DNA of 64,000 nt from Tetraselmis striata (taxonomy: Eukaryota > Chlorophyta > Chlorodendrophyceae > Chlorodendrales > Chlorodendraceae), in contig VCJN01000257.1 in NCBI GenBank assembly GCA_006384855.1, positions 1-64,000 of the forward strand, written 5' to 3'. Position 1 is the stretch's first letter; each line of letters opens with the position of its first letter. Of this stretch, positions 857 through 36,090 are shown piece after piece. The notes beneath the pieces were generated by a model. It searched no databases. It saw nothing but the letters and a program-made list of their open reading frames with translations, and had not been told where the DNA came from. The translations under genes were made by a program, and so were the position numbers.

Positions 857-2392
857 TCATGCCTCTCCGCATCTTTGGGTCTTGTGGGTCGAGTGCGCGA
901 TGCCAGCCACGGCCTCAATGTTGTTGGACTTGCAAAATGATCTCACGGCCATGGTCATGTTGCTGTAGTGCCCATGTGTGTTGCAAGCATCAATGGGTGA
1001 ACGATCCAAACAATTATTGATGGGTTCCACAAACACAAAATGCTGCATATTATTGGATTGTTGATTGCAAAGCAAAATAACCAAAAAATCGGGCGGCAAG
1101 TACAACAGAAGCGCTTACCAAACGTCACCAGTTTTGGTATCACATGTGGTCCAACAGTACAATGAAACTCCAAAAACTCAAGGAAACCAAGCTTTGTATC
1201 CTTGCTGACCCATCCATTCTCAGTGTTGGAGACAGCCACTATGTCACCTTTCGGCTCCCTGTGTTTCATGATCACATCCCTATTGTAAGTATGTTTAACA
1301 CAACGTATCATATTTGTTGAAGACCGAGCACTGTTGTAGCTGCCAATAGGTAAAAACAAATCAACAATTATGTTTTTGTCAATCGTCCGTCATGCACCAG
1401 ACTAATTAAGTGGGACTCACTTGGCCAAGTTTGCAGGCAGAACTTTCCGTGCGAAGATCGGCATCATCGGAAGGGCCTTCCTGCCCATTGTGGCCAGTAT
1501 CGCAGTAACGTGTTCGCTCGCTCAGAAGGCACCAAAATCTGTTTTTGTATCCCTCCAAGGTCAGGAACCCTTTTTTTGGTCCCACTGCACTGGATTAGCA
1601 GCACGTTGATATCCAGAGTTGTTTCATCATAATTGATTATCTGCTGAATGGTGAGCAGGGGTTGAGGCAGCAAGGCATCTGCGCCATGTTGCGCCCTCAC
1701 CCACTTGATGGTGAGCTCACAAATGTGACAGCGCATGCCACATAACCTATCAACATTTGTGGCAGCACAGAACAAGGCATGAAAGTTAGTCCAACTCGCT
1801 GCCGTAATCATATACCATGCACATACTGTGTGGTGATCAATTATGGAATGCATGCTGGCGCTCATATTCTCATGGAACCACTTAACATTGTCCTTAGTGA
1901 GTGCATAGATGCGCTGCATTCCCACTGAGTGTCCACTGCAATGAGCAAACTCAATCCCTGAGATGCCTGACCTGTGGATCCATGCCTTGTACCAACCATC
2001 CATACATGTGTCCTTGTTGTACGGCCGGCCACAGATGTGTCCTTCATGCCAAGCTCAATGAACATGGCCTTCGCCATCTTTTTTATCTCTCGGTGATGCA
2101 GAGGCTCATCGCACAACATCATCACGCTGACGACGTCCGCCAACCACAACTCTGCATCTGGGCATAGTGGAGCTCGGCCAGGGGGTCGCAGTCCCTCGCC
2201 AGCCTTGATGCGCAGCACATACTTGCGCTCTTGCTCGCCATGTGGCACGCCGCAATAGGACTTGATGGTCTCGAACTTTATGGGCTTAGCTGCTACATGC
2301 CATGACTTTCTTCCAGGCCCTTGCTTCAGGGCATCGTGGTCCTTCTCCTGGCGATGCGAATGATTTAGTGTGACGCCGCCCTTGGACAGCAC
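857..2392 (-). pseudogene. pogo/Tigger-like (CENP-B/DDE) transposase relic, copy A
   Basis: Overlapping minus-strand frames broken by shifts read, in order, like a pogo-type transposase. A CENP-B-like helical region is followed by a GWYKAWIHR helix-turn-helix segment (about 1990). Next comes a YDETTLD segment (about 1630) at the place of the first catalytic Asp of the DDE fold, then a GWVSKDTKLGFLEFLE segment (about 1200). The reading frame changes at least twice between these blocks, so no intact enzyme is encoded. The order and motif spacing are what I see; the family call is by pattern recognition and needs a profile search. The same relic is in copy B. Confidence 0.55.
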
Positions 2393-3303
2393 CTCTTCAA
2401 GGGCGGGACACCGCTGCCTTGCGGGCAGTCATGTCTGCCCACTTCTCCAGCATGCTCATCACCAGCGTCAGGTTCTTGGGGTTGTCTTGTTGTAGGACCG
2501 AGCACCGGAGTGCACTGGAGTCTGTAAAAATCATCGAACGACCAAAAGGCAGTAATTAGCCTTTTATCATATGCGATATGAGTCATTCACATCAAAATTT
2601 CCCACAGCAAAAACACATACACAAACGTGTAAGCAAACATCGTATAGAAAGTGTATGTTCATAAACAACGGCTATCGGCGTCCATATGTACCCCACCTTC
2701 TTCGCCTTCCTCCTGACCCCTCCAAACTGCCCGCCCTTAGTACCACCGGCGGCGCCCGTCGTACGTTGTAGAGTTCCCCCCCTTGTCATGATGGCAGTCT
2801 TTCTGGTAGCGTCCCTGCTCGATGCGGCGGCAGCCTTCGTTACATATAGTCGCCCACTCGCCCGTCCAGTCGTTCCGACCCGGCCGACCGCCGCGGCTCG
2901 CCGAGTCACCGCCGCGCACCTCCTACATCCGGGAGTGTTTCCCCGCCCTGCCGAGCGTGTGACTGGGGTCACTGTGTCCGCCCTAGGGAGCAGGCGGAGT
3001 CGCTGGAGGTCTGGCTGTGTGCGCGGTAATGATTGGACTGGTCGCGGTAAAGTTTGGCTGTCCCCCGCGGTATGTTATGGACCCCCCGCGGTGAAGTATG
3101 GACCTTTCCGCATGTCGGGTTTCCGGTGTTGTTTGGACACCCCCAGGGATAACTACGTCCTGATACCCTGATACACCGCGGACGTTCTTATATCTGTTAT
3201 GTGTCCCTATATTGGATATTGATTGGCTCCGGACTCCGAGACGTGCCCGCCGGCAGCTCCCCCGCCTCCATCCGGAATTATGTAACTCGCTGCCATCCCG
3301 CGA

Positions 3304-4009
3304 CTAGCGCCACAATTGCTGCATCCCGCACACCGAGAAGCCGGCGCGCAGAGGATCCCCCTCCTCCCACAGCCGCTCTCGCCGCTCCGCCAAATTCCGC
3401 ACAAATGCGGGGCTGCTGGATGGGTAGGGTCGCAGTAGCAGCTCCGCAAACACGTAGACATCGCCTTCGGCCCCATACGACCGGTCGTCGATAGGAGTGG
3501 AGCTGTCAGCATAGGCAAGCGTACGATCTAGTAGGGGGAAGAGGACAGGCCGAGCCGCGGGACAGACGCCGACAGCCGTACCCCGCAGCGGCGTACGGGG
3601 CATCATCCGGTAGACGTCGCGGGTAGCGCACCACCGAGCGGTGGCCGCGAGGGCGGCATCATGGGCAGCTGAGGCAGCAGCCGGCGCGTGCTGGCGCTGC
3701 AGCGCCCGCACGCCAGCTGCCGACGCCGGGAGAGCCACACCGGGCGGGGGGCGGAGCCGTGGGAGGAGGGGGGCTGCAGAACTCGCAGGTGGCGGCACGG
3801 GCCGCCGCTCGCGCGCCATGGAACACGTGGTGGCCCGAGCGCGGGCAGCCGGCTCGTGGGGCGCACCGCACATACACAGAGGGGTCGAAAGTCGCAGCGC
3901 AGGCGAGGTGCATAGCAGCTACCGCCGGGTCGTCGGACTCCATCCCGTGGTTCACGTGCGTGCTCACGGGGGCGGGCCGCTGGTAGGTACGTCCGTCCGC
4001 AGCTGCCAT
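3304..4009 (-). pseudogene. Frameshifted copy A of an unidentified GC-rich reading frame
   Basis: Homologue of the open frame at 26690-27490. Relative to copy B it has an 18-bp in-frame insertion near 3820 and a 4-bp insertion in the G-run near 3745, which throws the frame. A stop at 3304 lies upstream of the copy B stop. The family is not recognised. The intact frame in B is the better representative. Confidence 0.5.
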
Positions 4010-4249
4010 CGCATCACCGGAACTGCCAGTCAACGCCCCCGCCGGGCGTCGACGACTGTACCCGCGCCATCGCAGCGCCGTACGCCCACCACCACCACCT
4101 CCCCCGCCGGGACCGCGACCCCCACGGAAGACGCCCTAGCAGAGGGGCCGGAGGACGCCCCACGGTGCTGAACCCCCACCGGCCACGCCACAGCCAGAAG
4201 CCAGGGGTCGGGGGGGATCGCGCTGTCGAATGGCCCGGTATAAGCAAAC

Positions 4250-5037
4250 CTCTGTGTCTATACCGATATGACCATAAAGCCGCATTATATAGCTGTATGG
4301 TAGCTATCTGAGTACAGGTGCGGCGCTACCTCAGTAATAGTACCCTGTACTGTCAGGCGGACCGACGCCGACGGCTTGCCCCCCGCCGGCTCGCTCCCCT
4401 GCCTGCCTCTCGTAGTACTGTAGTAGCGACTAAGGATTAGTACTTTGCCTTCGCCCGACTCTACTACCCGCGTGTAACCTTTTTAAGTAAACTTTTTGGT
4501 AACCTTTTTAACCAAACCCATCACCGACACGCTGCCATCCGTGTGATACCAAAAATAGAAGCCCTGTGCTTGCGGATGAGACAAAAAGCGTCTCATCCGC
4601 AATCCTGCCCCGTTTCGCAAGTCTATCCGCAGGCAACCCTCCACCCTGGCAAACAATCTCATATGGGGCCACCGCTTGGGCCTTAACGTGAGTGTGTCAC
4701 GGTGTCTGCGCTTGGCTTCCCCTCTCTAGTCTCGTTACTGGCACTGATACATGCGTCGAACTGTGGCGAGTGTGTTCTAATACTCTCCTCTCCGCATCCA
4801 GGTGTCACCTCGCCGTCTCCGCCCTCTGCCCCCGTTTCACAGTCACAGCCTGCGAGCATCCCACACGTTAAGAGGAAGAAAGCCAAGGTGAGTGTGCTTG
4901 CGTGTGTTCCGGCTCTGTGCTCTGCCTTCTTCGTCACTGCGAGTGCGCCCTATCGTTGCGAGTCGGGTGACATGTTGCCTACCACCCCACCACAGGAGCC
5001 GGCTCTCGCACACTCTGCCCAGCCCGCTCTGCACACG
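4250..5037 (+). promoter_or_regulatory. Upstream region / 5' leader of TIR-TM-WD40 gene, copy A
   Basis: No supported protein gene. It is conserved with 27720-28580. It contains intron-like boundaries: a GTGAGT at 4687 with a CATCCAG at about 4800, and a GTGAGT at about 4889 with a CCACCACAG at about 4996. This suggests short non-coding leader exons. Copy B lacks 2 bp just before the TIR start (CACACTGCCC against CACACTCTGCCC). Any frame read through from upstream would differ between copies, so I treat the region as untranslated. Confidence 0.45.
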
Positions 5038-7162
5038 ATGTCGTTCAGCGATGCCCACCTCCACGACGTTTTTCTCACCCACGACTGGCAAGGCGCCGAC
5101 GGCAGGAACCATGAGCGCGTGGCACGTGTGAACTGCTGCCTCCAGGAGCTTGGGCTCCGCACCTGGTTCGACGAGAGGCAGACAGGGAAAGTGCAAGAGC
5201 GCATGGCGGAGGGGCTGAAGGACTCAGGTGAGCTGGTCTTTGTCACACAGCGCTACCATGACAAGGTCACATGCGAGGACCAGTCAGACAACTGCAAGTT
5301 CGAGTTTGACATTGCGTTGGCATACAACCAGGCCAACATGCTGCCAGTGGTTATGGAGTTGGACATGCTCAACCCCAAAAAATGGCGCAGAACGATGAGG
5401 GCCTTGGGCACCAAAATGTTTGTGAACCTGTCCAACATCGACAACCTCACAGACGACCAACTGTTGGGGTTTGTGGAGACAAGGCTTCTGCCCCAAATGA
5501 CTTGGCTACCGGAATCCCTGCGGAAGAAGGCCGAGTCTGCGGCTGCCATCACCCCAAGAAGCAGCAGCAGCAGATCAAGAGCACCCTCCGTTGCCGTCAA
5601 GTTCGAAGAAGAGCTGGAGATGGATTTACAGGTTGAAGAACTTGGTGCGCCGGTTTCCGCACCGGCTATCCATGCATCAGCAGGTACATTTTGCGCGGAT
5701 GAATTACATTTGGACGGATGTAGTCTTCCTTTTGGAGTTTTCAGCATGCTCACATTTCTGTGTCAAACATGCGGTCCAGAGCTGCCGGGAATGATGGTCG
5801 GCACGGCAGATCAAGCTGAGGGTCACGGCTACTTTTCTTCTAGAGAGCGTGAAGAGTCTGGGCTGCTGATACCTGACTTTGAGCCTATGTCAGACAGCCA
5901 GGCATCAAGAATCAGCTATACCAGGAATACGGAAGTGCCGTCTGCTGTAAACCATGAGGTAATGTTGTCACCATGTTTGTTTATGGTCACTCAAGGTTAA
6001 GTGTGTTGATTCTTTTTTCTCGTTCTGTCAGGATTTGAAGAACCAAGGCACGAACAAGTTGACATCAGATCTTGAAAGGAAGGCAACTAGAGGATGGCCA
6101 TTCTCCAAGCGAGTCACGTTTGTCTTGATTGCAGCGATATTGCTTTTGGGTGCAGTCATTGGACTGGCAGTTGGTCTCAGTGGCAATCAGCAAGGCCAGT
6201 CAATCAATCACTCGGATCCTGTATCCTCGGTGGCTTTCACGGCGAAGCTGGAGGGGCACTCGGATTACGTGTCCTCGGTGGCGTTCAGCCCCGACGGCGC
6301 GACGGTCGCCAGCGGCAGCGGCGATACCACCGTGCGGCTGTGGGACGCGGCGAGCGGCGCGCTCACCGCCACGCTGGAGGGGCACTTGAGTCCTGTATTC
6401 TCGGTGGTGTTCAGCCCCGACGGCGCGACGGTCGCCAGCGGCAGCTGGGACGACACCGTGCGGCTGTGGGACGTGGCGAGCGGCGCGCTCACCGCGAAGC
6501 TGGAGGGGCACTCGGATTACGTGTCCTCGGTGGCGTTCAGCCCCGACGGCGCGACGGTCGCCAGCGGCAGCGAGGATACCACCGTGCGCCTGTGGGACGC
6601 GGCGAGCTTCGCGCTCACCGCCACGCTGGAGGGGCACTTGGGCTGGGTCAAATCGGTGGCGTTCAGCCCTGACGGCGCGACGGTCGCCAGCGGGAACGGC
6701 GATGCCACCGTGCGGCTGTGGGACGTGGCGAGCGGCGCGCTCACCGCCACGCTGGAGGGGCACTTGAGTCCTGTATTCTCGGTGGTGTTCAGCCCCGACG
6801 GCGCGAAGGTCGCCAGCGGCAGCTGGGACTATACCGTGCGGCTGTGGGACGCGGCGAGCGGCGCCCTCACCGCGACGCTGGAGGGGCACTCGGGTATCGT
6901 ATTCTCGGTGGCGTTCAGCCCCGACGGCGCGACGGTCGCCAGCGGCAGCGGCGATACCACTGTGCGGCTGTGGGACGGGGCGAGCTTCGCGCTCACCGCC
7001 ACGCTGGAGGGGCACTGGGAAGGGGTCAGCTCGGTGGCGTTCAGCCCCGACGGCACGACGGTCGCCAGCGGCAGCTACGATACCACCGTGCGGCTGTGGG
7101 ACGCGGCGAGCGGCGCGCTCACCGCCACGCTGGGGAAACCCTCGCGGCTGAGTGGAGGATGA
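5038..7162 (+). CDS. TIR - transmembrane - WD40 propeller receptor-like protein, copy A (2 exons)
   Basis: Two exons, 5038-5958 and 6032-7162, join in phase 0 across a 73-bp intron (GTAATG...CTGTCAG), giving 683 residues. Residues 8-155 are a TIR domain: HDVFLTHDW opening, TWFDE, FVTQRYHDKV, then an NCKFEF segment whose Cys-x-x-Glu sits at the position of the catalytic Glu of TIR NADases. A Ser-rich linker follows. Near residues 335-357 is one hydrophobic helix (VLIAAILLLGAVIGLAVGL) preceded by a basic stretch, predicting TIR in the cytosol and the C-terminus outside. Seven WD40 repeats of exactly 42 residues (6248-7129) could form one seven-bladed propeller. There is no signal peptide. The start is the first ATG after the point where copies A and B differ by 2 bp. 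Domain calls are by motif; an immune or signalling role is inference. Confidence 0.8.
6248..7129 (+). repeat. Array of seven 126-bp WD40-coding repeats, copy A
   Basis: Exactly seven units of 126 bp, each beginning with the LEGH box and ending TVRLWD...ALTAT. Units are almost identical at DNA level over most of their length and differ mainly at the few residues just after GH (SDYVSSV, LSPVFSV, LGWVKSV, SGIVFSV, WEGVSSV). This indicates recent expansion or ongoing homogenisation. Confidence 0.9.
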
Positions 7163-7880
7163 TGGCAAGCAGCGCGAGAGCCTTGGAGGGTTCCACCTCT
7201 TCCGTTTGTTGCATTTTCTGTTTACACCACTTCTCCAAATGTTCCTCTTGGGATGTGCTTCATGCATGTAAGACATGGAACAACCCGTGTATCGGATGTC
7301 CCTACTAAACACATTTTCAATTAGCCCTGACAGCATGCATGATGGGCGAGTCCACCGCTCGAGATATGCTTTGTGAACTGTGTCGAAATCTAGCGGGGTT
7401 GTGATCATATTCATGCCATCGACTGAAGATTGGTTTGATGCCCCACTTGGGTGGGGAGGGAGCTCCCGAGCCTCCCATCTGCACTTTGTGCCATGCAGTT
7501 ATAGCTAGCCAGCAGAGACAAGCTCGAAGTGTGTCGAACAAATAGGAATTTTCTCTCTAGGCTGCGCTGTCCAGGCATACCCTGGTGCTTCAGCACGCAC
7601 TTGTGATCATATCCTAATCGCATAATACACGACACCGCTGCTTCCTGGCGGCATGGGGAAGTCTGTCCAAACTGTCAGTGAGCTAGCTATCTAGATTCTA
7701 GACGTGACATATACTGCATTATGAAGCAACTTGACAGTTGAATCAGCGATGCGTCGATTTTTCAGAAAATTCTAAAAGAATGGGTTCTATATCACTGGCC
7801 TACAGTTCCATCAATTGCATTGCCAGCGCTTTGAAGTACCATAGTTTTTTTTTCCATTACCAGCAGCGAGTAGCGAGTAC
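7130..7880 (+). repeat. 3' flank of the WD40 array, repeated three times in the window
   Basis: Covers the end of the coding region (GKPS...stop) and about 720 bp of 3' sequence, and recurs at 9139-9907 and 30676-31426. No gene is seen in the non-coding part. All copies end at the same GTAGCGAGTAC junction, followed by different sequence in the second copy. Confidence 0.85.
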
Positions 7881-8047
7881 CAGTACTCATAGCCTCCCAA
7901 CCGTGAGATCGTATTCGGACGGCTGTGTAATTAAGGACCGTGGGTGGGCGGGTGCTTTGATTATAGTACTCAGTATTACATGCAAGTAGATAAGCGCTTT
8001 AGTCATGCACCTATAGGCCCGATCCGCTGCACTACACGGGTACCCGT
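7881..8047 (+). repeat. 167-bp dispersed repeat, copy 1
   Basis: Begins CAGTACTCATAGCC and ends ACGGGTACCCGT. The same 167 bp occur at 18918-19084 (different flanks) and 31427-31593. At 9907, where the upstream flank is shared, it is absent. Probably a small mobile or mini-element. No coding capacity is seen. Confidence 0.75.
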
Positions 8048-8160
8048 GAGGGCCCCATTTGACGTCAATCGGGGATTGTAACGGCCAAGACCTTCGCTTA
8101 AGCCCTTGCACCCTGACCGTTACGCGGTTTCAGCCCTACGGGACCCGGTGGCCCAGTACT

Positions 8161-8373
8161 TTACCGCCTCACCGCCTCACCCTCCGCCCCCGCGACGCCC
8201 GCGAACAGCTCGGCCAGCAGCGCCTCCGGGATCTGGTACGTCTTGGCCCGCCCCGTGCGGCGCTTGAACGGCCGCTTCCGCGGGTCGCCGTGCAGCCCGT
8301 TCTGGGCGCACGCCAGGTGGATGCCATGCTCGCGCTTGTAATCGCACGGATCGAGGTGGCAGTGCTTCAGCTC
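8161..8373 (-). pseudogene. Truncated 3' end of viral cytosine methyltransferase
   Basis: Matches 31707-31919, the last 70 codons and stop of the methyltransferase of the integrated virus, then stops dead at 8373 where WD40 sequence begins. The catalytic Pro-Cys region is missing, so this fragment cannot be active. It shows that copy A once bordered the same viral insertion, or received its end by copying. Confidence 0.85.
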
Positions 8374-9165
8374 AACGCGAAGCTGGAGGGGCACTCGGAC
8401 TGGGTCAGCTCGGTGGCGTTCAGCCCCGACGGCGCAACGGTCGCCAGCGGCAGCGGCGATACCACCGTGCGGCTGTGGGACGCGGCGAGCGGCGCGCTCA
8501 CCGCGAAGCTGGAGGGGCACTCGGATTACGTGTCCTCGGTGGCGTTCAGCCCCGACGGCGCGACGGTCGCCAGCGGCAGCGAGGATACCACCGTGCGCCT
8601 GTGGGACGCGGCGAGCGGCGCGCTCACCGCCACGCTGGAGGGGCACTCGGGCTGGGTCAAATCGGTGGCGTTCAGCCCCGACGGCGCGACGGTCGCCAGC
8701 GGCAGCGGCGAGACCACCGTGCGGCTGTGGGACGCGGCGAGCGGCGCGCTCACCGCGAAGCTGGAGGGGCACTCGAGTCCTGTATTCTCGGTGGTGTTCA
8801 GCCCCGACGGCGCGAAGGTCGCCAGCGGCAGCTGGGACTATACCGTGCGGCTGTGGGACGCGGCGAGCGGCGCCCTCACCGCGACGCTGGAGGGGCACTC
8901 GGGTATCGTATACTCGGTGGCGTTCAGCCCCGACGGCGCGACGGTCGCCAGCGGCAGCGGCGATACCACTGTGCGGCTGTGGGACGGGGCGAGCTTCGCG
9001 CTCACCGCGACGTTGGAGGGGCACTGGGAAGGGGTCAGCTCGGTGGCGTTCAGCCCCGACGGCGCGACGGTCGCCAGCGGCAGCTCCGATACCACCGTGC
9101 GGCTGTGGGACGCGGCGAGCGGCGCGCTCACCGCCACGCTGGGGAAACCCTCGCGGCGGAGTTGA
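8326..9165 (+). CDS. Chimeric frame: antisense viral segment joined to six WD40 repeats
   Basis: From the first in-frame ATG at 8326 the frame reads about 16 codons antisense through the methyltransferase remnant and then enters six 126-bp WD40 units in the correct frame (8383-9138), ending after GKPSRRS at 9165. There is no TIR or membrane helix. Six blades are one short of copy A and B arrays. It could be expressed as a small stand-alone WD40 protein, or be a dead fragment of a second TIR-WD40 gene. The start is a guess; no promoter is seen. Confidence 0.4.
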   Translation: MLALVIARIEVAVLQLNAKLEGHSDWVSSVAFSPDGATVASGSGDTTVRLWDAASGALTAKLEGHSDYVSSVAFSPDGATVASGSEDTTVRLWDAASGALTATLEGHSGWVKSVAFSPDGATVASGSGETTVRLWDAASGALTAKLEGHSSPVFSVVFSPDGAKVASGSWDYTVRLWDAASGALTATLEGHSGIVYSVAFSPDGATVASGSGDTTVRLWDGASFALTATLEGHWEGVSSVAFSPDGATVASGSSDTTVRLWDAASGALTATLGKPSRRS

Positions 9166-9907
9166 GGATGATGGCAAGCAGCGCGAGAGCCTTGGAGGGT
9201 TCCACCTCTTCCGTTTGTTGCATTTTCTGTTTACACCACTTCTCCAAATGTTCCTCTTGGGATGTGCTTCATGCATGTAAGACATGGAACGACCCGCATA
9301 TCGGATGTCCTTACTAAACACATTTTCAATTAGTCCTGACAGCATGCACGATGGGCGAGTCCACCGCTCGAGATGTGCTTTGTGAACTGTGTCGAAATCT
9401 AGCGGGGTTGTGATCATATTCATGCCATCAACTGAAGATTGGTTTAATGCCCCACTTGGGTGGGGAGGGAGCTCCCGAGCCTCCCATCTGCACTTTGTGC
9501 CATGTAGCTAGCTAGCCAGCAGAGACAAGATCGAGGTGTGTCGAACAAATAGGTTGTCGAATAGGTTGTCAAACAAACAAACTCTATGCTGCGCTGTCCA
9601 GGCGCACCCTGGTGCTTCAGCACGCACTTGTGATCATATCTCAATCGCATAATACACGACACCGCTGCTTCCTGGCGGCATGGGGAAGTCTGTCCAAACT
9701 GTCAGTGAGCTAGCTATCTAGATTCTAGACGTGACATATACTGCATTATGAAGCAACTTGACAGTTGAATCAGCGATGCGTCGATTTTTCAGAAAATTCT
9801 AAAAGAATGGGTTCTATATCACTGGCCTACAGTTCCATCAATTGCATTGCCAGCGCTTTGAAGTACCAGAGTTTTTTTTTCCATTACCAGCAGCGAGTAG
9901 CGAGTAC
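9139..9907 (+). repeat. Second copy of the WD40 3' flank
   Basis: Duplicates 7130-7880 with small changes near 9500-9590. It ends at the same GCGAGTAC junction, here followed by TGTTGTCACGATGTGCGCAC, which is the spacer sequence of the fold-back array at 15.2-16.4 kb. Confidence 0.85.
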
Positions 9908-24009: not shown

Positions 24010-25790
24010 TCATGCCTCTTTGCATCTTTGGGTCTTGTGGGTCGAGTGCGCGATGCCAGCCACGGCCTCATTGTTGTTGGACTTGCAAAATGATCTCACG
24101 GCCATGGTCATGTTGGTGTAGTGCCCATCTGTGTTGCAAGCATCAATGGGTGAACGATCCAAACAATTATTGATGGGTTCCACAAACACAAAATGCTGCG
24201 AATTATTGGATTGTTGATTGCAAAGCAAAATAACCGAAAAATCGGGCGGCAAGTACAACAGAAGCGCTTACCAAATGTCACCAGTTTTGGTATCACATGT
24301 GGTCCAACAATACCATGACACTCCAAAAACTCAAGGAAACCAAGCTTTGTATCCTTGCTGACCCATCCATTCTCAGTGTTGGAGACAGCCACTATGTCAC
24401 CTTTCAGCTCCCTGTGTTTCATGATCACATCCCTATTGTAAGTATGTTTAACACAACGTATCGTAATTGTTGAAGACCGAGCACTGTTGTAGCTACCAAT
24501 AGGTAAAAACAAATCAACAAGTATGTTTTTGTCAATCGTCCGTCATGCACCAGACTAATTAAGTGGAACTCGCTTGGTATCCTGGTCATACTTCTGGATT
24601 TTGTGGCGCTATGCAGCCCGCAATGCAGTCATTGGTTCCGAGCTTGACACACCGAGGATGGGGCAATTGTGGTATCTACAGCAACCGTGTTCCCGCGGAT
24701 ACCACCACACCCAAAAAGCCCAACATCGGCATGTGAGCACTGTTGTAGCTACCAATAGGTAAAAATAAATCAACAATTATGTTTTTGTCAATCGTCCGTC
24801 ATGCACCAGACTAATTAAGTGGGACTCACTTGGCCAAGTTTGCAGGCAGATCTTTCTGTGCAAAGATCAGCATCATCGGAAGGGCCTTCCTGCCCATTGT
24901 GGCCAGTATCGCAGTAACGTGTTCGGCTCGCTTAGAAGGCACCAAAATCTGTTTTTGTATCCCTCCAAGGTCAGGAACCCTTTTTTGGTCCCACTGCACT
25001 GGATTAGCAGCACGTTGATATCCAGAGTTGTTTCATCATAATTGATTATCTGCTGAATGGTGAGCATGGGTTGAGGCAGCAAGGCATCTGCGCCATGTTG
25101 CGCCCTAACCCACTTGATGGTGAGCTCACACATGTGACAGCGCATGCCACATAACCTATCAACATTTGTGGCAGCACAGAACAAGGCATCAAAGTTAGTC
25201 CAACTCGCTGCCGTAATTCATATACAATGCACATACTGTGTGGTGATCAATCATGGAATGCATGCTGGCGCTCATATTCTCATGGAACCACTTAACATCG
25301 TCCTTAGTGAGTGCATAGATGCGCTGCATTCCCACTGAGTGTCCACTGCAATGAGCAAACTCAATCCCTGAGATGCCTGACCTGTGGATCCATGCCTTGT
25401 ACCAACCATCCATACATGTGTCCTTGGTGTACGGCCGGCCACAGATGTGTCCTTCATGCCAAGCTCAATGAACATGGCCTTCGCCATCTTCTTGATCTCT
25501 CGGTGATGCAGAGGCTCATCGCGCAAGATCATCACACTGACGACGTCCGCCAACCACAAGTCTGCATCTGGGCATAGTGGAACTCTGCCTGGGGGTCGCA
25601 GTCCCTCGCCAACCTTGATGCGCAGCACATACTTGCGCTCCTGCTCGCCATGTGGCACGCCCCAATAGGACTTGATAGTCTCGAACTTTATGGGCTTAAC
25701 TGCTACGGGCCATGACTAACTTTCTTCCAGGCCCTTGCTTCAGGGCATCGTGGTCCTTCTCCTGGCGATGCGAATGATTTAGTGTGACGC
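24010..25790 (-). pseudogene. pogo/Tigger-like transposase relic, copy B
   Basis: Same blocks as in copy A: the CENP-B-like region (25272-25658), GWYKAWIHR, YDETTLD near 25040, and GWVSKDTKLGFLEFLE near 24350, with frameshifts between them. It differs from A by a segment of about 250 bp between direct repeats (24478-24566 and 24735-24822), the form expected if A lost it by recombination. Not functional. Confidence 0.55.
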
Positions 25791-26689
25791 CGCCCTTGGA
25801 CAGCACCTCTTCAAGGGACACCGCTGCCTTGCGGGCAATCCTGTCCTCCCACTTCTCGAGCATGCTCATCACCAGCGTCAGGTTCTTGGGGTTTGTCTTG
25901 TTGTAGGACCGAGCACTGGATTTCTGTAAAAATCAACGGACGACAAAAAGACAGGAATTAGCCTTTTATCATATGCGATATGAGTCATTCGCATCAAAAT
26001 TTCCCACAGCAAACACACATACACAAACGTGTAAGCAAGCATCGTATAGAAAGTGTATGTTTATAAACAACGGCTGTCGGCGTCCATATATACCCCACCT
26101 TCTTCGCCTTCCTCCTGACCCCTCCAAACTGCCCGCCCTTAGTACCACCGGCGGCGCCCGCCGTACGTTGTAGAGTTCACCCCCTTGTCATGATGGCAGT
26201 CTTTCTGGTAGCGTCCCTGCTCGATGCGGCGGCAGCCTTCGTTACATATAGTCGCCCGTCCAGTCGTTCCGACCCGGCCGACCGCCGCGGCTCGCCGAGT
26301 CACCGCCGCGCACCGTCACTGCCGCCGCCGGCGGCCCTCTTACATCCGGGAGTGTTCCCCCGCCCTGCCGAGGGTGTGACTGGGGTCACTGTGCCCGCCC
26401 TAGGGAGCAGGCGGAGTCGCTGGAGGTCTGGCTGTGTGCGCGGTACTGATTGGACTGGTCGCGGTATTGTTTGGACTAGTTGCGGTATTGATTGGACTGG
26501 TCGCGGTAAAGTTTGAGCCCCCCGCGGTATTTTATCATTTTATGGACCCCCCGCGGTAAAGTATGGACCTTTCCGCATGTCGGGTTTCCGGTGTTGTTTG
26601 GACACCCGCAGGGATAACCACGTCCTGATACCCGGATACACCGCGGACGTTCTTATATCTGTTATGTATGGCGCCGCAAAGGTATCCGT

Positions 26690-27490
26690 TTATTGGATAT
26701 CCATAATGTGGATGTCTCTAATTAATTGGCTCCGGACTCCGAGACGTGCTCGCCGGCAGCTCCCCCGCCTCCATCCGGAATTATGCAACTCGCCGCCATC
26801 TCGCGACTCGCGCCACAGTTGCTGCATCCCGCACACCGAGAATCCGGCGCGCAGAGGATTCCCCTCCTCCCACAGCCGCTCTCGCCGCTCCGCCAATTTC
26901 CGCACAAATGCGGGGATGCTGGATGGGTAGGGTCGCAGTAGCAGCTCCGCAAACACGCAGACAGCGCCTTCGGCCCCATACGACCGGTCGTCGATAGGAG
27001 TGGAGCTGTCAGCATAGGCTAGCGTACGATCTAGTAGGGGGAAGAGGACAGGCCGAGCCGCGGGACAGACGCCGACAGCCGTACCCCGCAGCGGCGTACG
27101 GGGCATCATGCGGTAGACGTCGCGGGTAGCGCACCACCGAGCGGTGGCCGCGAGGGCGGCATCATGGGCGGCTGAGGCAGCAGCCGGCGCGTGCTGGCGC
27201 TGCAGCGCCCGCACGCCAGCTGCCGACGCCGGGAGAGCCACACCGGGGGGCGGAGCCGTGGGAGGAGGGGGGCTGCAGAACTCGCAGGTGGCGGCACGGG
27301 CCGCCGCTCGCGCGCCCGAGCGCGGGCAGCCGGCTCGTGAGGCGCACCACACATACACAGAGGGGTCGAAAGTCGCAGCGCAGGCGAGGTGCATAGCAGC
27401 TACCGCCGGGTCGTCGGACTCCATCCCGTGGTTCACGTGCGTGCTCAGGGGGGCGGGCCGCTGGTAGGTACGTCCGTCCGCAGCTGCCAT
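26690..27490 (-). CDS. Unidentified 266-residue reading frame, copy B
   Basis: Open from ATG 27490 to the stop at 26690. The N-terminal half is Ala/Pro-rich with scattered Cys. The C-terminal half looks more ordered (RWCATRDVYRMMPRTP, RSYGAEGAVCVFAELLLRPY, SIPAFVRKLAERRERLWEEG). Conservation of the second half between copies is high while copy A is frameshifted. It could be a transposon-borne protein or a GC-rich chance frame. No family recognised and no promoter seen. Confidence 0.35.
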   Translation of the reverse strand: MAAADGRTYQRPAPLSTHVNHGMESDDPAVAAMHLACAATFDPSVYVWCASRAGCPRSGARAAARAATCEFCSPPPPTAPPPGVALPASAAGVRALQRQHAPAAASAAHDAALAATARWCATRDVYRMMPRTPLRGTAVGVCPAARPVLFPLLDRTLAYADSSTPIDDRSYGAEGAVCVFAELLLRPYPSSIPAFVRKLAERRERLWEEGNPLRAGFSVCGMQQLWRESRDGGELHNSGWRRGSCRRARLGVRSQLIRDIHIMDIQ

Positions 27491-28580
27491 CGCATCACCG
27501 GAACTGCCAGTCAACGCCCCCGCCGGGCGTCGACGACTGTACCCGCGCCATCGCAGCGCCGTACGCCAACCACCACCACCTCCCCCGCCGGGACCGCGAC
27601 CCCCACGGAAGACGCCCTAGCAGAGGGGCCGGAGGACGCCCCACGGTGCTGAACCCCCACCGGCCACGCCACAGCCAGAAGCCAGGGGTCGGGGGGGATC
27701 GCGCTGTCGAATGGCCCGGTATAAGCAAACCTCTGTGTCTATACCGATGTGACCATAAACCCGCATTATATAGCTGTATAGTAGCTATCTGAGTACAGGT
27801 GCGGCGGCGCTACCTCAGTAATAGTACCCTGTACTGTCAGGCGGACCGACGCCGACGGCTTGCCCCCGCCGGCTCGCTCCCCTGCCTGCCTCTCGTAGTA
27901 CTGTAGTAGCAACTAAGGATTAGTACTTTGCCTTCGCCCGACTCTACTACCGCGTGTAACCTTTTTAAGTAAACTTTTTGGGAACCTTTTTAACCTTTTT
28001 GGTAACTTTTTGTAGTGCGCTTTTGTGAAAGCCCTTATGTAATTAAAAATTTTTAACCAAACCCATCACCGACACGCTGCCATCCGTGTGATACCAAAAA
28101 TAGAAGCCCTGGCGCCCCCGCCACAAAAAGCGTCTCATCATCCGCAAGCCTGCCCCGTTTCGCAAGTCTATCCGCAGGCAACCCTCCACCCTGGCAAACA
28201 ATCTCATATGGGGCCACCGCTTGGGCCTTAATGTGAGTGTGTCACGGTGTCTGCGCTTGGCTTCCCCTCTCTAGTCTCGTTACTGGCACTGATACATGCG
28301 TCGAACTGTGGCGAGTGTGTTCTGATACTCTCCTCTCCGCATCCAGGCGTCACCTCGCCGTCTCCGCCCTCTGCCCCCGTTTCACAGCCACAGCCTGCGA
28401 GCATCCCGAATGTTAAGAGGAAGCCAGCCAAGGTGAGTGTGCTTGCGTGTGTTCCGGCTCTGTGCTCTGCCTTCTTCGTCACTGCGAGTGCGCCCTATCA
28501 CTGCGAGTCGGGTGACATGTTGCCCAACACGCCACCACAGGAGCCGGCTCTCGCACACTGCCCAGCCCGCTCTGCACACG

Positions 28581-30708
28581 ATGTCGTTCAGCGATGCCCA
28601 CCTCCACGACGTTTTTCTCACCCACGACTGGCAAGGCGCCGACGGCAGGAACCATGAGCGCGTGGCACGTGTGAACTGCTGCCTCCAGGAGCTTGGGCTC
28701 CGCACCTGGTTCGACGAGAGGCAAACAGGGAAAGTGCAAGAGCGCATGGCGGAGGGGCTGAAGGACTCGGGAGGTGTGCTGGTCTTTGTCACACAGCGCT
28801 ACCATGACAAGGTCACAGGCGAGGAGCAGTCAGACAACTGCAAGTTCGAGTTTGACATTGCGTTGGCGTACAACCAGGCCAACATGCTGCCAGTGGTTAT
28901 GGAGTTGGACATGCTCAACCCCAAAAAATGGCGCAGAACGATGAGGGCCTTGGGCACCAAAATGTTTGTGAACCTGTCCAACATCGACAACCTCACAGAC
29001 GACCAACTGTTGGGGTTTGTGGAGACAAGGCTTTTGCCCCAAATGACTTGGCTACCGGAATCCCTGCACCAGAAGGCCGAGTCTGCGGCTGCCATCACCC
29101 CAAGAAGCAGCAGCAGCAGATCAAGAGCACCCTCCGTTGCCGTCAAGTTCGAAGAAGAGCCGGAGATGGATTTACAGGTTGAAGAACTTGATGCGCCGGT
29201 TGTCGCACCGGCTATCCATGCATCAGCAGGTACATTTTGCGCGGATGAATTACATTTGGACGGATGTAGTCTTCCTTTTGGAGTTTTCAGCATGCTCACA
29301 TTTCTGTGTCAAACATGCGGTCCAGAGCTGCCAGGAATGATGGTCGGCACGGCAGATCAAGCTGAGGGTCACGGCTACTTTTCTTCTAGAGAGCGTGAAG
29401 AGTCTGGGCTGCTGATACCTGACTTTGAGCCTATGTCAGACAGCCAAGCATCAAGAATCAGCTATACCAGGAATACGGAAGTGCCGTCTGCTGTAAACCA
29501 TGAGGTAATGTTGTCACCATGTTTGTTTATGGTCACTCAAGGTTAAGTGTGTTGATTCTTTTTTCTCGTTCTGTCAGGATTTCAAGAACCAAGGCACCAA
29601 CAAGTTGACATCAGATCTTGAAAGGAAGGCAACTAGAGGATGGCCATTCTCCAAGCGAGTCGCGTTTGTCTTGATTGCAGTGGTATTGCTTTTGGGTGCA
29701 GTCATTGGACTGGCAGTTGGTCTCAGTGGCAATCAGCAAGGTCAGTCAATCAATCACTCGGATCCTGTATCCTCGGTGGCTTTCACGGCGAAGCTGGAGG
29801 GGCACTCGGATTACGTGTCCTCGGTGGCGTTCAGCCCCGACGGCGCGACGATCGCCAGCGGCAGCGGCGATACCACTGTGCGGCTGTGGGACGTGGCGAG
29901 CGGCGCGCTCACCGCCACGCTGGAGGGGCACTTGAGTCCTGTATTCTCGGTGGTGTTCAGCCCCGACGGCGCGACGGTCGCCAGCGGCAGCTGGGACGAC
30001 ACCGTGCGGCTGTGGGACGTGGCGAGCGGCGCGCTCACCGCGAAGCTGGAGGGGCACTCGGATTACGTGTCCTCGGTGGCGTTCAGCCCCGACGGCGCGA
30101 CGGTCGCCAGCGGCAGCGAGGATACCACCGTGCGCCTGTGGGACGCGGCGAGCTTCGCGCTCACCGCCACGCTGGAGGGGCACTTGGGCTGGGTCAAATC
30201 GGTGGCGTTCAGCCCTGACGGCGCGACGGTCGCCAGCGGGAACGGCGATGCCACCGTGCGGCTGTGGGACGTGGCGAGCGGCGCGCTCACCGCCACGCTG
30301 GAGGGGCACTTGAGTCCTGTATTCTCGGTGGTGTTCAGCCCCGACGGCGCGAAGGTCGCCAGCGGCAGCTGGGACTATACCGTGCGGCTGTGGGACGCGG
30401 CGAGCGGCGCCCTCACCGCGACGCTGGAGGGGCACTCGGGTATCGTATTCTCGGTGGCGTTCAGCCCCGACGGCGCGACGGTCGCCAGCGGCAGCGGCGA
30501 TACCACTGTGCGGCTGTGGGACGGGGCGAGCTTCGCGCTCACCGCCACGCTGGAGGGGCACTGGGAAGGGGTCAGCTCGGTGGCGTTCAGCCCCGACGGC
30601 ACGACGGTCGCCAGCGGCAGCTACGATACCACCGTGCGGCTGTGGGACGCGGCGAGCGGCGCGCTCACCGCCACGCTGGGGAAACCCTCGCGGCTGAGTG
30701 GAGGATGA
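28581..30708 (+). CDS. TIR - transmembrane - WD40 propeller receptor-like protein, copy B (2 exons)
   Basis: Exons 28581-29504 and 29578-30708 join in phase 0 over a 73-bp intron, giving 684 residues. TIR domain 8-155 with Cys87-x-x-Glu90 at the NADase glutamate position. A low-complexity linker runs to about residue 330. The basic stretch RKATRGWPFSKR is followed by a hydrophobic helix (about 336-357), and seven WD40 repeats span 381-674. Copy B has GG-V where copy A has G-E in the TIR strand before LVFVTQRY (3-bp difference). By the positive-inside rule the TIR is cytosolic and the propeller extracytosolic, the reverse of an intracellular NLR and like a Toll-type receptor. It lies immediately upstream of the viral element. 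Function is inferred from architecture only. Confidence 0.82.
29794..30675 (+). repeat. Array of seven 126-bp WD40-coding repeats, copy B
   Basis: Seven units of 126 bp in the same order as copy A (6248-7129), with only a few base changes (for example GATIAS in the first unit). Units one and three are almost the same, as are two and five, pointing to higher-order duplication inside the array. Confidence 0.9.
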
Positions 30709-31426
30709 TGGCAAGCAGCGCGAGAGCCTTGGAGGGTTCCACCTCTTCCGTTTGTTGCATTTTCTGTTTACACCACTTCTCCAAATGTTCCTCTTGGGAT
30801 GTGCTTCATGCATGTAAGACATGGAACAACCCGTGTATCGGATGTCCCTACTAAACACATTTTCAATTAGCCCTGACAGCATGCATGATGGGCGAGTCCA
30901 CCGCTCGAGATATGCTTTGTGAACTGTGTCGAAATCTAGCGGGGTTGTGATCATATTCATGCCATCGACTGAAGATTGGTTTGATGCCCCACTTGGGTGG
31001 GGAGGGAGCTCCCGAGCCTCCCATCTGCACTTTGTGCCATGCAGTTATAGCTAGCCAGCAGAGACAAGCTCGAAGTGTGTCGAACAAATAGGAATTTTCT
31101 CTCTAGGCTGCGCTGTCCAGGCATACCCTGGTGCTTCAGCACGCACTTGTGATCATATCCTAATCGCATAATACACGACACCGCTGCTTCCTGGCGGCAT
31201 GGGGAAGTCTGTCCAAACTGTCAGTGAGCTAGCTATCTAGATTCTAGACGTGACATATACTGCATTATGAAGCAACTTGACAGTTGAATCAGCGATGCGT
31301 CGATTTTTCAGAAAATTCTAAAAGAATGGGTTCTATATCACTGGCCTACAGTTCCATCAATTGCATTGCCAGCGCTTTGAAGTACCATAGTTTTTTTTTC
31401 CATTACCAGCAGCGAGTAGCGAGTAC

Positions 31427-31593
31427 CAGTACTCATAGCCTCCCAACCGTGAGATCGTATTCGGACGGCTGTGTAATTAAGGACCGTGGGTGGGCGGGTG
31501 CTTTGATTATAGTACTCAGTATTACATGCAAGTAGATAAGCGCTTTAGTCATGCACCTATAGGCCCGATCCGCTGCACTACACGGGTACCCGT
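31427..31593 (+). repeat. 167-bp dispersed repeat, copy 3
   Basis: Same as 7881-8047 and 18918-19084. It lies between the WD40 3' flank and the first viral sequence, so it may mark the original insertion junction. Confidence 0.75.
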
Positions 31594-31706
31594 GAGGGCC
31601 CCATTTGACGTCAATCGGGGATTGTAACGGCCAAGACCTTCGCTTAAGCCCTTGCACCCTGACCGTTACGCGGTTTCAGCCCTACGGGACCCGGTGGCCC
31701 AGTACT

Positions 31707-32378
31707 TTACCGCCTCACCGCCTCACCCTCCGCCCCCGCGACGCCCGCGAACAGCTCGGCCAGCAGCGCCTCCGGGATCTGGTACGTCTTGGCCCGCCCC
31801 GTGCGGCGCTTGAACGGCCGCTTCCGCGGGTCGCCGTGCAGCCCGTTCTGGGCGCACGCCAGGTGGATGCCATGCTCGCGCTTGTAATCGCACGGATCGA
31901 GGTGGCAGTGCTTCAGCTCGAGGCCCGCCTTGTTGGTCCAGATCGCGGTGTACTTCTTATAATCCCGCCCGTATTTGCAATATGTGCACCGGTGGAGGAA
32001 CGGCTCCAGCGGCGCCATGAACTCCCTTTTCCTAAGCATCCCCGTATACGGGTTCTCGATGAACCAGTGGCGCGGCGCGAACCACTCGATGATCTCGAGG
32101 CACTTTTGGGCGATCGAGTCCGCCAGCGCGAGGTCACGCACACCGATCGTCTTCGCGGTGCTGTACTCGGTGCACGGCGGGCTGGCCCATATAACGTCGA
32201 AGTGCCCCTGGGGGTACGCCGACCGGTAATCCCACTCGCGCACGTCCACCAGGTGCGTGGGGCGCGTCGAGGCGGTGGTGTCCACCGACACGTACTCCAC
32301 CTTGTCGTGGCCATACATCTCGCGCAAGGCCGACCCCACGCTCTGGGATCCCGAACAAACATCCAGAACGCGAATCAT
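31707..32378 (-). CDS. Viral DNA (cytosine-5) methyltransferase
   Basis: 223 residues. It begins MIRVLDVCSGSQSVGSAL, the AdoMet-binding motif I of cytosine methyltransferases. The catalytic segment DVIWASPPCTEYSTAK with the Pro-Cys nucleophile pair follows near residue 70, then WFIENPYTGMLRKREFM. The C-terminus has a C-x-x-C-like TYCKYGRDYKKYTAIWTN region. It is short compared with host Dnmts and lacks a long target recognition domain, as in many viral enzymes. The ATG at 32378 is preferred because motif I follows directly and an AT-rich leader precedes it; the frame upstream crosses a poly-C tract and a repeat. Likely role: modification of viral DNA. A 213-bp piece of this gene is in copy A. 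Confidence 0.8.
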   Translation of the reverse strand: MIRVLDVCSGSQSVGSALREMYGHDKVEYVSVDTTASTRPTHLVDVREWDYRSAYPQGHFDVIWASPPCTEYSTAKTIGVRDLALADSIAQKCLEIIEWFAPRHWFIENPYTGMLRKREFMAPLEPFLHRCTYCKYGRDYKKYTAIWTNKAGLELKHCHLDPCDYKREHGIHLACAQNGLHGDPRKRPFKRRTGRAKTYQIPEALLAELFAGVAGAEGEAVRR

Positions 32379-32515
32379 TACCGATCGTGACGACAAAAAA
32401 CAAGAAAATGCCCCAGGTCCGTCTTTTTGGGACGAACCTGCGCGCACCTGGTGCTGGTAGCAGGTGTAGCAAATGAGGGTCACAAGAACCCCTCCCCCTC
32501 CCCCTCCCCCCCTCC

Positions 32516-33425
32516 TGAAAACGTTTTCGGTTCGCAGCCCCATGGGAACATTTCCGGAGATCGTGGCTGGGTAGACGTCTGCTCTACCCCTGGTGATTTT
32601 TTGATCAGGAGCTTTCTTCGCCCACCGTATCATTTAAACGGTAAAAGCTCTGGGTAGAGCAGGTAGAGCAAAATGGGCTTTTTAAAACTTATCCCATATT
32701 CACGTTGTGAGTTTCGGGCCCGGCCGAAACTCGTTTTCCCTTACAAAAGTATTTTCCGGATTTTGCTCTACCTGCTCTACCTCTGATTAAAATGATACTA
32801 AAATTCTCTGAGAATTTCTGAAAATCAACCGGTGTACCGCTTGATTTTGCTGGGTAGACGTCTGCTCTACCTCTGCTCTACCTGCTCTACCCAGCCCCCT
32901 CGCTCGGCCTCACACAGGAACCCCTCCAGATCCGGAGCCCCTCCACCCTCCCCCCCTCTCCTCGCCCTCCTGAAAACGTTTTCGGTTCGCAGCCCCATGG
33001 GAACATTTCCGGAGATCGTGGCTGGGTAGACGTCTGCTCTACCCCTGGTGATTTTTTGATCAGGAGCTTTCTTCGCCCACCGTATCATTTAAACGGTAAA
33101 AGCTCTGGGTAGAGCAGGTAGAGCAAAATGGGCTTTTTAAAACTTATCCCATATTCACGTTGTGAGTTTCGGGCCCGGCCGAAACTCGTTTTCCCTTACA
33201 AAAGTATTTTCCGGATTTTGCTCTACCTGCTCTACCTCTGATTAAAATGATACTAAAATTCTCTGAGAATTTCTGAAAATCAACCGGTGTACCGCTTGAT
33301 TTTGCTGGGTAGACGTCTGCTCTACCTCTGCTCTACCTGCTCTACCCAGCCCCCTCGCTCACCCTCACACAGGAACCCCTCCAGATCCGGAGCCCCTCCA
33401 CCCTCCCCCCCTCTCCTCGCCCTCC
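32516..33425. repeat. Tandem 455-bp duplication between methyltransferase and TVpol genes
   Basis: Two near-perfect copies, 32516-32970 and 32971-33425. Differences are few (for example GCTCGGCCTC against GCTCACCCTC). The second copy covers the last 20 codons of the TVpol gene, so the duplication carried that 3' end with it. Each copy holds two inverted repeats, described separately. It is the only sizeable non-coding part of the element. Confidence 0.95.
32653..32781. promoter_or_regulatory. Nested inverted repeats, candidate replication or control region (copy at +455)
   Basis: Outer perfect 21-bp inverted repeat: GGTAGAGCAGGTAGAGCAAA and one more A at 32653-32673, mirrored at 32761-32781. 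Inside it, GAGTTTCGG (32709-32717) pairs with CCGAAACTC (32724-32732) over a 6-base loop. Just outside, GGGTAGACGTCTGCTCTACCC can also fold. All recur 455 bp downstream. Between two convergently ending minus-strand genes this could be an origin, a terminator/insulator or a packaging signal; none is proved. Confidence 0.5.
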
Positions 33426-35839: not shown

Positions 35840-35880
35840 TTTGGTTATTCTTGACAAAAATGTTTTCTGCTCGCGGACGC

Positions 35881-36090
35881 TTAGGCACTTTCTGCGATCT
35901 CGTACTTTCGGGGACGTCCGGGAGGCCGAACGTCGCTGCCCCGGTTCTTGTAGTATCGCGCGAGAGCGGCCTTGCGCTCCCTCTCGAGGTTGTCGACGTA
36001 GCGCTTCCTGTAATTCTCGCGGGCGATCCGCTTCTTCTTCTCGGCGGCGGATTCAACGGGGGCGATATCGATGGCTTCGGATACGTTCAT
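35881..36090 (-). CDS. Small basic viral protein A
   Basis: 69 residues, starting MNVSEAIDIAPVESA, then a charged segment ARENYRKRYVDNLERERKAA and LARYYKNR, ending GRPRKYEIAESA. The GRPRK tract resembles an AT-hook. The Arg/Tyr spacing (YRKRY...N.ER.RKAALARYYKNR) closely matches the small protein at 36731-36928. Probably a nucleic-acid-binding protein; function unknown. It lies 41 bp upstream of TVpol on the same strand and may be co-transcribed. Confidence 0.6.
   Translation of the reverse strand: MNVSEAIDIAPVESAAEKKKRIARENYRKRYVDNLERERKAALARYYKNRGSDVRPPGRPRKYEIAESA

Follow-up and report, generated by a model that had tools for sequence, protein, structure and literature searches.

The window analyzed here, a stretch of 64,000 nucleotides on contig C200 of the core chlorophyte Tetraselmis striata, carries two closely related genes (copy A and copy B) and a partial copy, all on the forward strand; the genome searched for relatives comprises 224 Mb in 2903 contigs. 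By sequence inspection, the reading frame of copy B runs on the + strand from an ATG at 28581 to a stop codon ending at 30708, and its three exons encode an N-terminal TIR domain, a linker, a strongly hydrophobic helix, and a C-terminal WD40 propeller (Table 1). The domains named in the initial annotation were all recovered: Pfam TIR_2 (PF13676) matched residues 11-133 with 40.7 bits against a cutoff of 28, WD40 (PF00400) matched the C-terminal part in seven stretches (E 6.1e-90), and the best 19-residue Kyte-Doolittle window reached 3.06, with the next best in the protein at 1.11. TIR_2 was the only Pfam match in 28581-29504, leaving about 72 residues before the first blade, which hold the helix, and a central NACHT or NB-ARC NTPase was not found by Pfam on either part of the gene. 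The TIR-transmembrane helix-WD40 (TIR-TM-WD40) architecture in T. striata is real.

Table 1. Features of the window, with positions counted from its first nucleotide
Feature	Position	Strand	Remarks
Segmental duplication, copy A side	1326..8373	.	94.8% identity over 7,236 columns
Copy A	5038..7162	+	Exons 5038-5683, 5780-5958, and 6032-7162; structure as copy B
Partial copy	about 8383..9138	+	Propeller part only (six WD40 blades), no TIR and no helix; ORF 8050-9165; follows copy A
Segmental duplication, copy B side	24735..31919	.	7.2-kb duplication partner of 1326..8373
Copy B exon 1	28581..29229	+	TIR domain and first half of linker
TIR domain	28611..28979	+	C87-x-x-E90; predicted fold and PDB matches
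Intron 1	29230..29325	+	96 bp, phase 1, in frame; missing from P0006, P0007, and gene model P0001
Copy B exon 2	29326..29504	+	Remaining linker
Intron 2	29505..29577	+	73 bp, GT-AG, phase 0; removed in P0007, read into in P0006
Copy B exon 3	29578..30708	+	Hydrophobic helix, WD40 propeller, stop
Transmembrane helix	29662..29718	+	Core AFVLIAVVLLLGAVIGLAV, preceded by ERKATRGWPFSKRV; Kyte-Doolittle 3.06
Seven 42-residue WD40 blades	29794..30675	+	Most variable at sites 5, 6, 7, 9, 25, 27, and 34

The initial annotation had described a single spliced frame with one phase-0 intron of 73 bp; that join held up, but an upstream intron of 96 bp had been missed. Both conclusions draw on two JGI entries retrieved by protein search, P0006 (290 aa from a 1383-base contig) and P0007 (266 aa from a 1895-base contig). 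P0007 reads HASA-ELPGMM and then NHE-DLKNQ, followed by the helix and three blades, with both introns absent; in P0006, the 96-bp segment is absent and reading continues into the 73-bp intron. Because all four genomic copies contain both the 96-bp and the 73-bp segments, P0006 and P0007 look like products of partly spliced and spliced RNA, respectively, and P0007 supports the 73-bp join with the helix retained. P0007, which has only three blades, combines features of the related genes on contigs C828 and C2490 (see below); it may represent a different allele or a chimera assembled from paralogues. The extra in-frame intron means that the product of copy B is likely 652 aa rather than 684 aa; with both introns out, the predicted product of copy A is 651 aa. 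For the linker segment LPFGVFSMLTFLCQTC, we had considered two roles, that of an additional helix and that of an extracellular repeat module, but the segment sits in the 96-bp intron and both were rejected.

Two public gene models of the T. striata set Tetstr1, also retrieved by protein search, are spliced differently: P0001 (84% identity, with 83% of the query stretch covered) joins TRNTE straight to the first blade and loses the whole helix, and P0002 (96% identity over 55%) has its join in mid-helix and loses half of it, so that the best hydropathy windows are 1.11 and 1.01, respectively, and neither has a full helix. Taken at face value, these models would fit a soluble cytosolic TIR-WD40 sensor, NLR-like but without an NTPase, in which splicing normally removes the helix and the helix form is a minor isoform, and such a sensor would be in keeping with the hypervariable blades found in NACHT-like ORFs elsewhere in this genome, which are presumably cytosolic. 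However, the splice sites of P0001 and P0002 differ even though the two are closely similar paralogues, which suggests prediction error; P0007, without the 73-bp intron, retains the helix; the intron has a long pyrimidine tract at its 3' end; and the helix segment is nearly invariant across the four genomic copies and P0007. We therefore consider the soluble sensor unlikely. The loss of the helix from P0001 and P0002 is probably mis-annotation, and, as the two models conflict with each other and with P0007, we did not accept them as settling the case against the helix. A helix-bearing transcript of the TIR-TM-WD40 gene thus seems likely from the sequences compared.

Copy A, whose first intron occupies 5684-5779, is 97% identical to copy B in the first exon stretch and 98% identical in the final one, and the two genes lie within a 7.2-kb segmental duplication. 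The initial annotation had counted these two copies correctly but had overlooked a partial third copy, which aligns in its WD40 part and 3' flank over 8370-9907 with 94.6% identity, and two further genes of the same TIR-linker-intron-helix-propeller build on contigs C828 and C2490. The C828 gene has seven blades. The C2490 gene has a TAG within blade seven, the last one, a linker segment in triplicate, and a Pro/Thr-rich stalk directly after the helix. The segmental duplication, the propeller-only fragment, and this TAG could be taken as signs of a recently amplified, partly decaying gene family without a present function. Against this, the frame stays open across all seven blades in three of the four genes and across six in the remaining one, the TIR has dN/dS values of 0.20-0.43 over the six pairs of the four copies, and the database proteins resemble products of spliced RNA; decay is, in our judgment, very improbable. 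The indels between the copies leave the frames open.

Beside copy B, a virus-like element occupies 31707-36052 on the - strand and carries genes for a DNA methyltransferase and a D5/DUF5906-type primase-helicase. By the 3' end of the primase ORF, a segment of about 0.45 kb is directly repeated in tandem (32486-32970 and 32935-33425, 98% identity). Integrated Polinton-like viruses have been reported from Tetraselmis (PMC10120064).

The AlphaFold model of the TIR domain has a pLDDT of 86.9, and its best PDB matches are AbTir, RPS4, and SARM1, with the first Toll-like receptor at rank 37; the 26 PDB chains found at E <= 0.001 bear titles of TIR domains or TIR-containing proteins. A profile search of PDB sequences with the TIR gave Cat1 (E 7.1e-5), 3h16 (0.0018), and, weakly, AbTir (0.023). 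We aligned 14 TIRs, namely those of the four window-family genes, six TIR-ARM paralogues, and four database proteins, and found C87 and E90 invariant in all 14. Ten of 12 genome matches entered this alignment; a fragment (L011) and a distant match of 29% identity (L012), which has no Cys in the CxxE motif, were left out, as were the TIR_2 matches outside the window-family/TIR-ARM group. We take E90 to be equivalent to E642 of SARM1 and E88 of RPS4. The initial annotation had noted that the Cys-x-x-Glu motif is kept and had suggested a signaling NADase, and the alignment and the predicted fold bear out an enzymatic-type TIR. On its predicted fold, the TIR is nearer to the NADase TIRs of AbTir, SARM1, and RPS4 than to Toll TIRs. 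The dN/dS values, the CxxE motif, and the fold and sequence matches together indicate a constrained TIR whose sequence and fold place it with the NADase type, and we consider that it probably cleaves NAD+. When viral contigs were scanned with the TIR alignment, 23 stretches fitted the pattern and none was confirmed, and the idea that this TIR is held in common with viruses was dropped. A TIR has been reported in Tetraselmis virus 1 (PMC9503650).

The helix is flanked asymmetrically: the 15 residues before it hold five Lys/Arg and one Asp/Glu, and the 15 residues after it hold no Lys/Arg and one Asp/Glu. The helix segment has dN/dS values of 0.57-0.68 in the comparisons with copy B. In exon 2 of the linker, dN/dS is 1.5-3.3 in four of six pairs, zero in one, and without a synonymous change in one; with values above 1 in four of the six pairs, we regard the linker as loosely constrained. 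Pro/Thr-rich stalks are typical of extracytosolic linkers, and we counted the stalk of the C2490 gene, right after the helix, in favor of an extracytosolic propeller. With one strong helix and this charge asymmetry, the signals agree with the membrane orientation first proposed, and a single-pass topology with the TIR in the cytosol and the propeller on the extracytosolic side appears likely.

The variation among the WD40 blades is the most informative new fact about this family and the strongest clue to its function; the initial annotation had not touched on it. Site counts were made on 31 of 34 blades, 25 of them distinct, after three had been dropped because they were short, one residue longer, or contained a stop. 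Outside sites 5, 6, 7, 9, 25, 27, and 34, the blades are near-identical. Sites 7, 9, 25, and 27 are all within the five most variable sites (hypergeometric P 4.5e-5), show 22 combinations in the 25 distinct blades, and have accumulated at least 28 non-synonymous and 3 synonymous changes, as opposed to 29 and 23, respectively, at the remaining 38 (Fisher P 7.5e-4); sites 8 and 26 require a minimum of 1 non-synonymous and 4 synonymous changes. Compared with the neutral expectation, the four sites give P 0.056, which is not significant, and the blades are not independent of one another. In the NWD genes of Podospora, codons 7, 9, 25, and 27 are strongly positively selected, codons 8 and 26 are under purifying selection, and the four selected codons map to the top of the modeled propeller (PMC1805685, PMC2873952). 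We took the algal and fungal blade numbering as equal because site 8 is the conserved Val and site 26 the conserved Asp. Given this pattern of variation, a role in recognition is the best reading of the propeller. The initial annotation had proposed structure prediction for both domains; it succeeded for the TIR, but the predicted model of the propeller (pLDDT 54.3) was too poor to use.

Most WD40 domains serve as scaffolds, and it could be argued that the protein sits in the membrane of an internal compartment (ER, plastid envelope, or flagellar membrane), where its propeller would be an assembly scaffold, with an enzymatically inactive TIR and with drift and concerted evolution at work in the blades; the four-site neutrality test, at only P 0.056, would accord with this. 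However, the variation falls on the same loop positions as in the fungal allorecognition genes, with sites 8 and 26 conserved, and the CxxE motif is invariant in the 14 aligned TIRs. A scaffold of this kind strikes us as distinctly unlikely.

We note that three NACHT-like proteins of the same genome, L047 (C1590), L052 (C2605), and L057 (C985), also have 42-residue WD40 blades, with variable sites that overlap those of the window gene. Their NTPase is indicated by an NPHP3_N match below the cutoff in L047 (21.6 versus 24.8 bits) and by a DALDEG motif recognized by eye. With 37 of 43 blades used and six left out, the pooled ORFs show non-synonymous and synonymous changes of 29:4 at the four sites and 21:16 elsewhere (P 0.004); when each of the three genes is tested separately, only C985 shows a significant focus on the four sites (P 0.003, compared with 0.12 in C1590 and 0.5 in C2605). 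As these ORFs are presumably cytosolic, the occurrence of like blades in them means that blade variability is no proof of a location outside the cell.

Overall, the explanation we favor, although we put its chances only at about even, is that the proteins of the window family are anchored in the membrane and act as recognition receptors, with a TIR in the cytosol that probably cleaves NAD and a diversifying propeller on the extracytosolic side. The four related T. striata genes would encode single-pass membrane receptors whose N-terminal TIR lies in the cytosol, with the basic residues on the inner side of the anchoring helix, and whose C-terminal WD40 propeller faces the cell exterior or the lumen of a compartment. 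Duplication and exchange would keep the blades alike, and the binding residues on top of the propeller would diversify, as they do in the fungal HET-D/HET-E genes. Binding of a partner of microbial or viral origin, or of one from another cell, would bring the receptors together and activate the TIR, which would then most likely cleave NAD+ or make ADP-ribose-type signals. The analysis establishes the gene structure, the domains, the strongly hydrophobic helix, the pattern of variation among the blades, and, in a predicted model, the type of TIR fold; we infer the membrane side, ligand binding, clustering, enzyme activity, and any role in defense or in self/non-self recognition. A bolder version, which we put forward tentatively and hold to be possible but doubtful, is an independently built family of surface receptors, analogous to Toll but with an inverted TIR-TM arrangement, in which a germline-diversifying WD40 ectodomain would use the hypervariable face known from fungal allorecognition genes to sense non-self, for example viruses, bacteria, or other strains, in the cell's surroundings and would signal by NAD cleavage.

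TIR-signaling surface receptors are known from animals, and the TIR receptors of land plants are intracellular. The window family has the look of an immune sensor in the membrane of a unicellular plant relative. If this is true, the Toll-like solution, with the sensor outside and the TIR inside, arose more than once, in a core chlorophyte too, and a repeat-shuffling propeller can serve as the sensor of a membrane TIR receptor. Because T. striata can be cultured and has a described virus, TsV-N1 (PMC4517135), the receptor idea is testable.

With respect to known systems, a protein search with the window gene found no relative along its full length outside T. striata. In T. striata, a TIR-TM-WD40 gene that does not belong to the window family, P0009 (L025, TSEL_028582, contig C1973), has a TIR_2 match just below the cutoff (27.4 versus 28 bits) and weak WD40 matches; the search with P0009 reached P0010 and P0011, and the database protein P0011 has a TIR, a strong helix, and a C-terminal WD40 part in that order. 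A scan of bacterial and archaeal genomes returned six loci, three of them from Anaerolineae with a TIR followed by a strong helix. In L069, both TIR_2 and WD40 were confirmed by Pfam; in L068, WD40 was confirmed, the TIR being recognized by eye and absent among the best 25 of 61 Pfam rows; and in L070, the match spans the TIR and helix only. No STAND family appeared among the best 25 of 55 rows for L069 or the best 25 of 61 for L068. This runs counter to the earlier generalization that bacterial TIR-WD40 proteins are usually soluble and come with STAND modules. L068, L069, and P0011 resemble the window gene in having an N-terminal TIR, one strong helix, and C-terminal WD40, so the order of parts is not unprecedented. 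The Anaerolineae proteins differ in a coiled stretch, seen by eye, after the helix, and no more than one regular WD motif in L068 and two in L069 turn up in a simple motif count, which indicates that their blades are not near-identical 42-mers. The initial annotation knew of no algal family with this order, and in the parts of the open-licence literature covered no description of an algal TIR-TM-WD40 family was found; the order itself, however, is known from Anaerolineae and P0011.

Elsewhere, the part covered of a survey of TIR architectures does not name TIR-TM-WD40 (PMC9153377), TIR-only proteins have been reported from unicellular green algae (PMC9806590), seven chlorophyte TIRs have been placed in a mixed group (PMC7075850), and cyanobacterial STAND proteins combine repetitive WD40 propellers with TIR partners (PMC9218822). 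The red alga Chondrus crispus has TIR-NBARC-WD40 proteins (PMC9806590) and NB-WD40 genes with TIR (PMC7145615), which unite TIR and WD40 in one algal protein but around a central NTPase that the window gene lacks. SARM1 shares a related TIR fold but has ARM repeats in place of the helix and propeller, as do the TIR-ARM genes of T. striata, whose TIRs are 45-51% identical to that of the window gene. The latter (L060-L065, on C40, C1400, C2592, C1704, C765, and C645) have a TIR, an apparent intron, and armadillo-like repeat arrays, which Pfam confirmed in L064 only, with a SAM-like stretch between TIR and repeats seen by eye, and recall the parts of SARM1 in reversed order. A further T. striata locus, L013 on the 536-kb contig C613, is a 1054-aa open frame with the best TIR_2 score of the genome (50.7 bits) and a helix of hydropathy 2.56; its C terminus looks propeller-like by eye, with no Pfam match in the 667 aa scanned. 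On the strength of its score, it had been a candidate for the best family member, but it was rejected because it is another kind of TIR-helix ORF, in which Pfam matches no propeller.

By sequence comparison, the parts of the window gene and their order are known, and it is the eukaryotic hypervariable sensor that is unmatched among the comparators. The fungal HET-D, HET-E, and HNWD proteins are cytosolic. They share with the window gene a blade variation centered on sites 7, 9, 25, and 27 with sites 8 and 26 conserved, but their organization is HET-NACHT-WD (PMC1805685), with no TIR or helix, whereas the window gene is without HET and NACHT. Toll and Toll-like receptors share the plan of a single-pass membrane protein whose TIR and recognition domain lie on opposite sides, and, by hydropathy alone, the window gene likewise has a single helix between sensor and TIR. 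The term Toll-like topology used in the initial annotation is loose because the domain order is inverted, with the TIR N-terminal and the would-be ectodomain C-terminal; the window gene also has WD40 instead of LRR.
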